Assembly (NCBI RefSeq): GCF_017875275.1
Contig: NZ_JAGGML010000001.1
Span: forward strand, 4,423,001 to 4,487,000
DNA length: 64,000 bases
DNA from: Xanthobacter flavus
Lineage (GTDB): Bacteria > Pseudomonadota > Alphaproteobacteria > Rhizobiales > Xanthobacteraceae
Direction: 5' to 3'
Shown one piece after another: positions 60,107 through 63,680 of this stretch. Position numbers and translations under genes: made by a program. How positions within the stretch are numbered: the first letter of the stretch is position 1; each line of letters opens with the position of its first letter. A model generated the notes under the pieces. The model saw only the letters and a list, made by a program, of their open reading frames with translations. It was not told the origin of the DNA and ran no database searches.

Positions 60107-60327
60107 GATGGGTCTCGATCGTCTCGCTTCAGGCGTCTCTAGACGGGCGCGGACCCCATGTCGATGCGGGGCGGCGATGCGGGGGGGCGATGCGGCGGGC
60201 GGGCCGGCGCCGCTTGTGGCCCTTCCCGGCAGCGGTGTATCAGGGCCGGCCGTCCTTCGAGACGGATTCGCTGTTCGAGACGCATGCGGTGCCCGGCGCC
60301 GTCTCCGTCGCCGCCCCGGGAAACGTC

Positions 60328-60981
60328 ATGTCCGCCGACGCCCCCCGCATTCCGCTTGCCGTTTCCGCCCTCGATCTCGGCGCGCTCCTGTGCTCGCGGG
60401 TCTGCCACGACGTCATCAGCCCGGTGGGCGCCATCGTCAACGGCCTCGAGGTGCTCGAGGATGAGAACGCCGCCGACATGCGCGACGTCGCCCTCGACCT
60501 CATCGCCAAGAGCGCCCGGCAGGCCTCGGCCCGGCTTCAGTTCACCCGGCTCGCCTTCGGCGCGGCGGGCTCGGCCGGTGCGCGGCTTGATACCGGGGAT
60601 GCCGAGCAGGTGGTGCGCGGTGTCATCGAGGATCAGCGCACGGCGCTGGAATGGACGCTGCCGCGTGTGCTGCTGCCCAAGAACCGGGTGAAGCTGCTGC
60701 TCAACCTCGTGCTGCTGGCCGGCACCACCGTGCCCCGCGGCGGCGTCATCCGCGTCACCGGGGCGGGGGAGGGGGACGACGTGACGTTCGCCCTCGTCTC
60801 CACCGGCCAAAGCGCCCGCATTCCGCAGGGGATCGAGGCACTGGCCAACGGCACCCTGCCCGAGGGCGGGCTCGACGCCCATTCCGTGCAGCCCTTCTAT
60901 GCCGGCCTGCTGGCCAGCGACTGCGGCCTTTCCATCGGCTTCACCCAGGACGGCGATACGGTTACCCTGACCGCTGCCTGA
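60328..60981 (+). CDS. chpT: Histidine phosphotransferase ChpT
   Basis: ChpT relays phosphate from the CckA receiver to CtrA and CpdR, a core step in the alphaproteobacterial cell cycle. The 217-residue protein begins with the dimerisation/phosphotransfer helix containing SRVCHDVISPVGAIVNGLE, whose His27 is the phospho-acceptor, and ends in a degenerate ATPase-like domain. Its response-regulator target ctrA lies 1.1 kb downstream on the other strand. Start ATG 60328 gives MSADAPRIPL. A longer upstream reading is not needed. Confidence 0.9.
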   Translation: MSADAPRIPLAVSALDLGALLCSRVCHDVISPVGAIVNGLEVLEDENAADMRDVALDLIAKSARQASARLQFTRLAFGAAGSAGARLDTGDAEQVVRGVIEDQRTALEWTLPRVLLPKNRVKLLLNLVLLAGTTVPRGGVIRVTGAGEGDDVTFALVSTGQSARIPQGIEALANGTLPEGGLDAHSVQPFYAGLLASDCGLSIGFTQDGDTVTLTAA

Positions 60982-61177: not shown

Positions 61178-61545
61178 CGCGACGGTCCATGTCGCGTCGG
61201 GACCGTCAGTGGCATCCGCGACGCATCATCCGTCGCCCGCAAAGGCGCGACTGGCTTCGACGGCTGAATTTCCGATCCATTCCCACGCAGGCGGCCCGTC
61301 GATGCCTTCCGGCCCGTCCTGCTGCTAGGGTTCGGGTTGTCTGATGACCTGCCACTGGGTCGTGCCGACGCTTGACCTCGCGCCCGGACCGGACGGTCCC
61401 GGCCAACGCGTCGGCTTTGCCCTGTCGGGCGAACGGCCGGCTGTTGGACCCGAGGTCCAGCTCCCGCCCCCGCGACACCAGGCCTGACGGCCACGGTGCC
61501 GGCCCCAGGGCGCCGAACACGTGTTCCATCTATGAGGAGAGACCC
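61178..61545. other. Intergenic region before DUF305 gene
   Basis: This 368-bp stretch starts with a hairpin (GACGCGAC, 61176-61183, with GTCGCGTC, 61191-61198) that could end the small upstream transcript. The rest has no convincing gene: a short frame at 61343 has neither ribosome-binding site nor recognisable product. The promoter of the DUF305 gene must lie here. Confidence 0.5.
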
Positions 61546-61989
61546 ATGCGGTCCCGCATCTTCGCGGCGCGCCTTGGCGCGGCCGTGCCTTTCACCCTCG
61601 TTGCCGCCGTCTGCGCCGGCATCCTGTCCATCGCCCCGGCGGCGGCCCAGTCGGCCATGCCCGGCGGGCACGACATGCACAACATGTCCCCTGCCATCGG
61701 CACCCCGGCTGCCGCCGACACGCCCTCCACCGCCGCGTTCAAGGCGGCCGGGGCGCGGATGCACAAGGATATGGACATCGCCTATTCCGGCAACGCCGAC
61801 GTGGATTTCGTGCGCGGCATGATCCCCCACCACGAGGGCGCCGTGGCCATGGCGAAGGTCGAGCTCGCCTTCGGCAAGGATCCCGAGATCCGCAAGCTCG
61901 CGGAGGGCATCATCAAGGCGCAGGAGGAGGAGATCGTCTTCATGAAGGCCTGGCTCGCCCGCGCCGAGGCGCGTGCCCCCTCGAAGTAG
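61546..61989 (+). CDS. DUF305 exported protein, probable copper-binding
   Basis: The 147-residue periplasmic protein has a signal peptide (ending near APAAAQS) and a Met/His-rich stretch [13 protein letters not shown]. The DUF305 domain has [20 protein letters not shown], then [18 protein letters not shown], whose HH pair is the family hallmark. DUF305 proteins often accompany copper resistance systems. The ATG at 61546 follows TGAGGAG. It ends near the ctrA stop, with a 12-bp hairpin between. Confidence 0.88.
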
Positions 61990-62056: not shown

Positions 62057-62758
<702 letters not shown>

Positions 62759-62826
62759 GGCTATCCCTTTCCTCGCAACTAGCCGAAAGGCGGCGGCGCC
62801 GACTTTCGTTGCTCGGCCATCGGGGT

Positions 62827-62922
62827 GATTCGCGTTACGTGTGTAGAATCGTTAACAGAACTCGATTCCTGACCACAAGAGTCTGCGCAAAAATCTTTGT
62901 GCATGGGAGTCAAGACTGACTC
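62827..62922. promoter_or_regulatory. Cluster of six GANTC sites upstream of ctrA
   Basis: GANTC, the recognition sequence of the cell-cycle methylase CcrM, occurs at 62827-62831, 62846-62850, 62864-62868, 62879-62883, 62907-62911 and 62918-62922. The last two are inside a small inverted repeat (GGAGTC...GACTCC, 62906-62923). GTTAAC, a CtrA-like half site, lies at 62851-62856. In Caulobacter the ctrA P1 promoter is controlled by GANTC methylation, so this is a likely methylation-sensitive ctrA promoter region. The remaining gap to fliJ has no further GANTC. Confidence 0.75.
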
Positions 62923-63186
62923 CGTTTCAGGCACTTAAGGTTTTTCCACAGGCTCACGCAAACGCCCGACCACCCCTGACCCGAGCCCCTTGATCCGGCG
63001 TCCAGCTGATGGCGCGGCGGCGCATCACCCGAACCGTAGCGTCATCATTAACGAAGGCGGTAAACGATTGGTTGCCGCCGGGGCGGTTCGTGCGATTTTC
63101 CTGCAACAGCGACGCCGCAGGTAAGGAAAGGGCAACCAGCACAGGACATTCTCATCACCCGGAGGCCCCGGCGCACATGGGCGGGC

Positions 63187-63230
63187 AGCCTGGCAGAAGC
63201 TTGGCAGAAAGCTTGGCATTCAGCTTGGCA
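63187..63230 (+). repeat. Helically phased direct repeats upstream of fliJ
   Basis: Four copies of AGCYTGGCA begin at 63187, 63198, 63210 and 63222, that is with 11, 12 and 12 bp periods. They lie 55-98 bp upstream of the fliJ start. Phasing near one helical turn suggests cooperative protein binding on one face of DNA. The core TTGGCA also resembles half of a sigma-54 promoter. Confidence 0.7.
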
Positions 63231-63284
63231 GGCAACATGGGCAATGACCGAAGGGCAGCGTCATAAGTACCGGAGTAGACGCCG

Positions 63285-63680
63285 ATGAAGTCGCGTGACC
63301 CCCTGATCCGTGCCAAGCGGTTCCAGATCGACGATGCGCGCCGGCGCCTCGCCCAGATCGACACGATGATTGCCGAGTTCGAGCGCATGGCCCAGGAACT
63401 CGACCGCGACATCGCCGCCGAGGAGGCGCGGTCCGGCATCACCGACCCGCGCCATTTCGCCTACCCGCCGCTGGCCCTCGCCGCCCGCAACCGCCGCGAC
63501 AACCTGCGCCGCTCGGCCGACGACCTCAAGGTGCAGCAGGACGAGGCCAAGGCCACGCTCGCCGAGGCGGAAGCCGACCTCGCCCTCGTGGAGGCGGCCG
63601 GCGAGATGGACCGTTCGTCCCGTGTGGACAACGCAACCCGCCGTCCCCCCTTGCGGCCCACCGCGCCGGTGCGGCTCTGA
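63285..63680 (+). CDS. fliJ: Flagellar export protein FliJ-like
   Basis: The 131-residue, highly charged, helical protein (KSRDPLIRAKRFQIDDARRR at the N-terminus, then two long coiled helices with KVQQDEAKATLAEAEADLAL) fits FliJ, the coiled-coil stalk of the flagellar export ATPase complex. Identification rests on length, start pattern, coiled coil and its position divergent from ctrA, as in related genomes. No other flagellar gene is in the window. The ATG at 63285 is preceded by GGAG. Confidence 0.75.
   Translation: MKSRDPLIRAKRFQIDDARRRLAQIDTMIAEFERMAQELDRDIAAEEARSGITDPRHFAYPPLALAARNRRDNLRRSADDLKVQQDEAKATLAEAEADLALVEAAGEMDRSSRVDNATRRPPLRPTAPVRL

Follow-up and report, generated by a model that had tools for sequence, protein, structure and literature searches.

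Six GANTC sites upstream of ctrA in Xanthobacter flavus include a core layout that recurs across the order and points to a probable P1-type, methylation-controlled promoter

The window, a 64-kb stretch of Xanthobacter flavus DNA from a genome of 5.35 Mb in one contig, carries ctrA, which is known from other bacteria as a master switch of the cell cycle. Searched against its own genome, the ctrA product has itself as best match and the next match at 40% identity; among the named loci, the closest CtrA is that of Xanthobacter autotrophicus (98%). A gap of 526 bp (62759-63284) separates ctrA from a divergent fliJ-like gene, whose TIGR02473 score of 25.6 bits is below the cut-off of 50.45 and for which no Pfam family over the cut-off was obtained. 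An open frame (61372-61989, plus strand) lies between chpT and ctrA. The genes of the locus are as follows.

60190-60981, plus strand: chpT, CtrA-phosphorelay histidine phosphotransferase (NCBIfam ChpT equivalog, 288 bits, cut-off 240)
62057-62758, minus strand: ctrA, 233 amino acids (NCBIfam CtrA equivalog, 420.9 bits, cut-off 350)
63285-63680, plus strand: divergent fliJ-like gene at the far end of the 526-bp gap (TIGR02473, E 1.4e-5)

Within the gap, all six GANTC sites are confined to 96 bp (62827-62922). They are listed here with the other elements of the region; distances are given from the ctrA ATG, and the conservation of each GANTC site is given for a clade of 11 related genomes that includes the present one.

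62827-62831, minus strand: GAATC at -73, about +14 to +18 relative to the predicted start; kept in all 11 clade members
62846-62850, minus strand: GATTC at -92, directly after GTTAAC, fitting YGAKTCK; 10 of 11 clade members
62848-62855, minus strand: putative CtrA half-site TTAACGAT, one mismatch from TTAACCAT, which is commoner in the order
62851-62856, minus strand: inferred -10 element GTTAAC, 16 bp from TTGTGG and overlapping the CtrA half-site
62864-62868, minus strand: GAATC at -110 (the core site), in the -35/-10 spacer of the predicted promoter and in a position like that of Caulobacter P1; kept in all 11 clade members
62873-62878, minus strand: inferred -35 element TTGTGG; TTG stands at this place in each of 98 loci with the core
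62879-62883, minus strand: GACTC at -125, immediately next to the predicted -35 element; kept in 10 of the 11 clade members
62907-62911, minus strand: GACTC at -153; 3 of 11 clade members, namely the present genome and two Xanthobacter autotrophicus
62918-62922, minus strand: GAGTC at -164; 9 of 11 clade members
62906-62923, no strand: inverted repeat GGAGTCA-AGAC-TGACTCC with arms at 62906-62912 and 62917-62923, spanning the -164 and -153 sites

An earlier sequence-only reading had held that fewer than one GANTC would be expected in these 96 bp and that the rest of the gap contains none. Both statements proved correct: the expectation is 0.095 at the genome rate (Poisson probability of at least six, about 9e-10), and recounting yielded no site in the remainder of the gap. 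A cluster arising by chance or from base composition had to be considered here, as the stretch is 46% GC in a genome of 68% GC and this AT-richer composition raises the expectation to 0.38, the mean of 20,000 shuffles of the stretch itself. None of these shuffles reached the observed count (maximum 4), however, and in none of 5,000 sequences from a Markov model of the 526 bp were even five GANTC found within 96 bp. These results and the conservation of the sites in the clade led us to reject chance or composition as the origin, a possibility to which we attach practically no weight.

The 64-kb window contains 57 GANTC compared with a mean of 267.9 in 100 shuffles, showing that the background is depleted in this motif; genome-wide depletion of GANTC and its enrichment in intergenic DNA have been described before (PMC3973325). 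A 400-kb sample of the same genome, 7.5% of the 5.35 Mb, contains 395 GANTC, compared with 428-874 for each of seven other palindromic pentamers of the same letters. When this sample and the window (464 kb) were taken together, at least three GANTC per 100 bp occurred at seven places (six in the sample and one in the window) and at least four at the ctrA-upstream cluster alone. Judged by the shuffles, the genome rate and these density counts, the cluster is real and unique within 464 kb, and the comparable density elsewhere that would have spoken against its significance was not encountered within these 464 kb of the 5.35 Mb. A stretch at L145:4313-4410 (G000:C1:1184313-1184410), with three GANTC and 29% GC, lies inside a 209-codon open frame and is perhaps foreign DNA.

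The enzymes and regulators that would be needed to use such sites have counterparts in the genome. A CcrM homologue, on whose presence the sequence-only reading depended, is encoded by a 407-amino-acid open reading frame with N6_N4_Mtase and RAMA domains; it matches the CcrMI structure 6pbd with E 1.3e-156 and scores 613 bits with the NCBIfam CcrM model, below the cut-off of 830. A GcrA homologue exceeds the cut-off of PF07750 and matches the GcrA structure 7ye1 (E 5e-38), with 159 bits in the NCBIfam GcrA model, below the cut-off of 280. Two MucR homologues are also present. A second gene of the GcrA family is located at G000:C1:676297-676857 (L011); its score of 66.2 bits exceeds the Pfam cut-off. 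Unexpectedly for an alphaproteobacterial regulator, the Pfam model of GcrA gave a match over its cut-off in the control genome of Sulfolobus acidocaldarius as well.

When ctrA upstream regions were aligned, the string CTTGC-N6-GAATC-AG-N5-GTTAACCAT proved to be conserved. Of the 126 unique upstreams of near relatives (130 minus 4 duplicates), 98 have a GANTC and, 7 bp after it, GTTAAC or a variant close to it; all 98 also have TTG at a constant offset. The resulting core, TTG-N7-GANTC-N7-GTTA, is present in 110 members of an order-wide set of 169 unique ctrA upstreams and once, at ctrA, in 464 kb of the own genome. The layout in the window is TTGTGG-N4-GAATC-N7-GTTAAC; the 16-bp spacing between TTGTGG and GTTAAC suits a sigma-70 promoter, whose transcript would start near 62844. 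We consider it likely that this element is a P1-type promoter under the control of CcrM methylation and GcrA, a cofactor of sigma-70.

At the -92 position the window has GTTAACGATTC in place of GTTAACCAT, the commoner form in the order, a change from C to G (C in 77 and G in 21 of 98 loci), and a CtrA half-site may thereby have been traded for a methylation site in the window. No full CtrA box (TTAA-N7-TTAA with at most one mismatch) was found in 62701-63300. For GcrA, the extended motif YGAKTCK has been proposed (PMC7987155, PMC8725594). Two of the six window sites fit it in full (-92, and -73 on the other strand) and the core site fits at six of seven positions; for Brevundimonas, an extended motif is reported to show no base preference (PMC7987155). 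Two DnaA-box-like sequences are also present, TTTTCCACA at 62942-62950 (plus strand) and TTCTACACA at 62840-62848 (minus strand), each one mismatch from TTATNCACA. The former was seen by eye in X. autotrophicus (L092) and not in the other clade members shown.

The high number of GANTC sites upstream of ctrA is not restricted to this genome. Near relatives average 4.39 GANTC per 300 bp over their 126 unique upstreams, compared with 1.28 in the Markov model, and 125 of these upstreams carry one or more. A draw spread evenly over the order (44 of its 128 ctrA-bearing genomes, one, and in one case two, per family, from 43 families) gave 3.48 per 350 bp where 1.35 were expected, with at least three sites in 29, at least one in 39 and none in 5 of the 44. 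A further set of 80 loci comprises the best 80 of 585 and is therefore biased towards near relatives; in 60 of them, no other window is as dense in GANTC as the 300 bp ahead of ctrA. Four or more sites per 300 bp occurred in 44 of these 80 upstreams and five or more in 31 of them, compared with 5 and 0, respectively, of 1,617 other windows. Exceptions within the order are four of ten Methylobacterium/Methylorubrum isolate loci with a single GANTC in 320 bp, and Beijerinckia mobilis with none.

Outside the order, the class shows no such enrichment. A search of 193 genomes yielded a ctrA match in 123; the sample drawn from these comprised all 27 genomes in which no ccrM match reached E 1e-40, that is, those absent from the list of 147 genomes with a ccrM match, and 33 of 93 with a strong match, one of which (L181) belongs to the order, while three genomes with weak or partial ccrM matches (G068, G142, G204) were left out. 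The mean was 1.06 GANTC in the 32 outside genomes with ctrA and ccrM (1.06 compared with 0.97 expected when the order member was added) and 0.67, with 0.85 expected, in the 27 without a ccrM match. The array is thus a habit of the order and not of all bearers of CcrM. Since ccrM-bearing outsiders lack the enrichment, the presence of CcrM alone does not predict it, and because it is missing both with and without ccrM, comparison across the class cannot on its own link the array to CcrM. The unusual number of sites noted in the sequence-only reading stands, but it is not peculiar to this genome; a link to control by CcrM and GcrA gains from the order-wide conservation and from the likeness to ctrA P1 of Caulobacter.

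The flanking sites also recur at fixed places. Relative to the core GAATC, the other window sites lie at -54, -43, -15, +18 and +37. In the 110 loci with the core, the preferred GANTC positions are -128 (47 loci), -119 (48), -38 (43) and +36/+37 (60), with minor ones at -104 (12) and -15 (11), and 74 of the 110 have a GANTC at +33 to +40. A 9-bp-spaced pair, GANTC-N4-GANTC, often followed by GGTTA, was counted in 92 of the 169 upstreams; among the 44 family representatives 15 have it, with 0.26 expected. A distal module of the form GAGTC-N4-GAGTCGGTTAg...TTCTTAA.GTG, about -250 to -190 from the ATG (for example L051, L061, L101), was seen in 92 of the 169 upstreams, far from the core, and is possibly a second promoter or a CtrA box. 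The Xanthobacter clade lacks this module and the distal pair and has a compact proximal set of GANTC sites. Although its ten other members share 59-82% identity with the window across 200 bp, five of the six window sites are kept in 9-11 of the 11 members.

These sites might be by-products of conserved protein-binding motifs, for sigma-70, CtrA or another factor, with methylation being incidental. The core is indeed wedged between conserved -35 and -10 elements, and at most positions one middle base is preferred (A in 108 of 110 loci at the core, T in 42 of 43 at -38). Column conservation in the clade points the same way, at 0.92 for the N columns, 0.87 for the fixed columns, a value lowered by the -153 site, and 0.68 for the others. 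We rejected the notion that the middle base drifts freely and that only methylation matters, as middle bases are mostly fixed per position; with N columns no more variable than the fixed ones, constraints beyond methylation must act. On the other hand, the conserved positions share GANTC and differ in their flanks and in the middle base, and outside the core these loci contain 372 GANTC in total, compared with totals of 38-134 for eleven pentamers built from the same letters, some of them overlapping GANTC. Genomes with and without ccrM outside the order, both lacking the enrichment, favour neither view. On balance we regard a by-product origin as unlikely, and a P1-type promoter under CcrM and GcrA control remains the reading that we favour.

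The inverted repeat noticed in the sequence-only reading is present, with perfect 7-bp arms (GGAGTCA and TGACTCC) and a 4-bp loop, and might be thought the working element, for instance an operator dyad or, for the divergent gene, a terminator. It is not conserved. The second site, at -153, is missing in 8 of the 11 clade members, which makes a working element improbable, and a GAGTC/GACTC pair is already complementary over 5 bp by itself. With the -153 site in only 3 of 11 members, the repeat as a working part was rejected, and we give it very little credence.

The base composition and the two MucR homologues raise another explanation, namely that the AT-richer stretch is bound by MucR and its GANTC sites are shielded from CcrM and stay unmethylated, so that occlusion and not activation by GcrA would be at work. 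In Caulobacter, MucR and CtrA can occlude GANTC (PMC5172544), and no MucR consensus motif is reported to have been identified there (PMC7987155). The 46% GC of the 96 bp within a 68% GC genome fits such binding, yet occlusion would not explain why a conserved site lies within the spacer between -35 and -10. Although it is compatible with a P1-type promoter, we judge MucR occlusion to be improbable, more so than a by-product origin.

If the favoured reading of a P1-type promoter is correct, passage of the replication fork would leave the GANTC sites of the ctrA promoter hemimethylated, GcrA would read the m6A mark and recruit RNA polymerase, and transcription of ctrA would start; binding of CtrA near the -10 element and remethylation would later change the output. 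GcrA is reported to bind m6A and to help the sigma-70 polymerase to open the promoter (PMC7403470). The flanking GANTC sites, next to the -35 element, after the -10 element, about 15 bp past the start and further upstream, would then act as extra marks around the polymerase footprint. Most likely they would raise the occupancy by GcrA, and the state of the promoter would come to depend on several sites. In Caulobacter, cell-cycle starts whose GANTC lies inside the -35/-10 spacer show activity at 40-60 min, when those with a GANTC outside are lowest (PMC4287350); by analogy, a promoter with sites both inside and outside could combine the two time courses. A switch more elaborate than a single site, as the sequence-only reading proposed, may be regarded as plausible. 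A further step, on which we are doubtful, would be to regard the ctrA promoter of the order as a multi-mark element in which the joint methylation state of the array sets the output and acts as a cooperative timer, the places of the array being the spacer, a position just downstream of the start, and either the 9-bp distal pair or the compact proximal set of Xanthobacter.

The time of hemimethylation would depend on the position of ctrA on the chromosome. The hemE gene lies near oriC in the bacterial group of Xanthobacter. In the 5.35-Mb genome the uroporphyrinogen decarboxylase gene (URO-D, hemE) is located at 2.39 Mb, dnaA at 2.56 Mb and ctrA at 4.49 Mb. The polarity of GGGNAGGG, which we take to be a KOPS-like signal, was followed in 21 stretches with small counts and changes at 2.8-3.07 Mb and at 4.98-5.23 Mb; the signs of GC skew were mixed. 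These data, with their small counts and mixed skew, suggest that replication begins at about 2.4-3.0 Mb and ends near 5.0-5.2 Mb; ctrA would then seem to belong to the half of the chromosome around the terminus, unlike in Caulobacter. If this placement holds, ctrA is replicated late and would be hemimethylated only briefly, again unlike in Caulobacter. A larger number of sites might compensate for this, by higher occupancy of GcrA or by slower remethylation.

The timing of ctrA by methylation has been worked out mainly on one Caulobacter site. The similar clusters found in related bacteria suggest that several methyl marks, rather than a single one, may switch ctrA. If members of the order, which are associates of plants, soil and animals, commonly keep three to six sites at recurrent positions of this promoter, they would be better suited to studying whether the cell cycle is timed by hemimethylation, and the sites of the ctrA array can be altered one by one.

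Counting GANTC upstream of ctrA is not new, and a ctrA promoter of the CcrM/GcrA type is known. In PMC8116508, up to five or six GANTC per 300 bp upstream of ctrA are given for Sphingomonadales and Caulobacterales, and for Rhizobiales only 50% of the ctrA promoters (300 bp) are listed as having any. The latter value disagrees with the 39 of 44 obtained here (350 bp). Promoters were also scanned in PMC2877005, with no conclusion on methylation control. In open-licence papers we found no report of a recurrent multi-site layout upstream of ctrA. Enrichment of GANTC by 4.4-4.7-fold in GcrA ChIP peaks has been reported for Brucella, a member of the same order (PMC6813329).

The closest known system is ctrA P1 of Caulobacter, whose GANTC lies at -29/-28 and whose CtrA half-site, TTAA, lies at -14 (PMC4287350; the sequence is given in Table 2 of PMC3751295). 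Both species have ccrM and gcrA homologues, the target gene ctrA, and a GANTC near a CtrA half-site by the -10 element. The window site that most resembles the Caulobacter site is, on the predicted promoter, 62864-62868. From the start of GANTC to the start of TTAA there are 13 bp in X. flavus and about 15 bp in Caulobacter P1, and the X. flavus GAATC lies in the middle of the spacer of the inferred promoter, unlike that of Caulobacter P1. Caulobacter has one GANTC at P1 and another after the P2 start (PMC3667746), whereas X. flavus has six. An unmethylatable ctrA promoter is reported to have caused no abnormal phenotype in Caulobacter (PMC3973325).

Sinorhizobium meliloti, of the same order, has ctrA promoters P1 and P2 with two mapped starts and four to five CtrA sites (PMC4433202); in the main text of that paper the word GANTC does not occur. 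Rhizobium and Ensifer loci (L069, L087) have the 9-bp pair together with the core GAATC, whereas Xanthobacter is without the distal pair. A multi-site arrangement is also known from Agrobacterium, where the promoters PA and PE of repABC Ch2 contain three GANTC each, with site-specific effects and a link to GcrA (PMC11514494). These promoters drive replication genes, whereas the array of X. flavus sits at ctrA.
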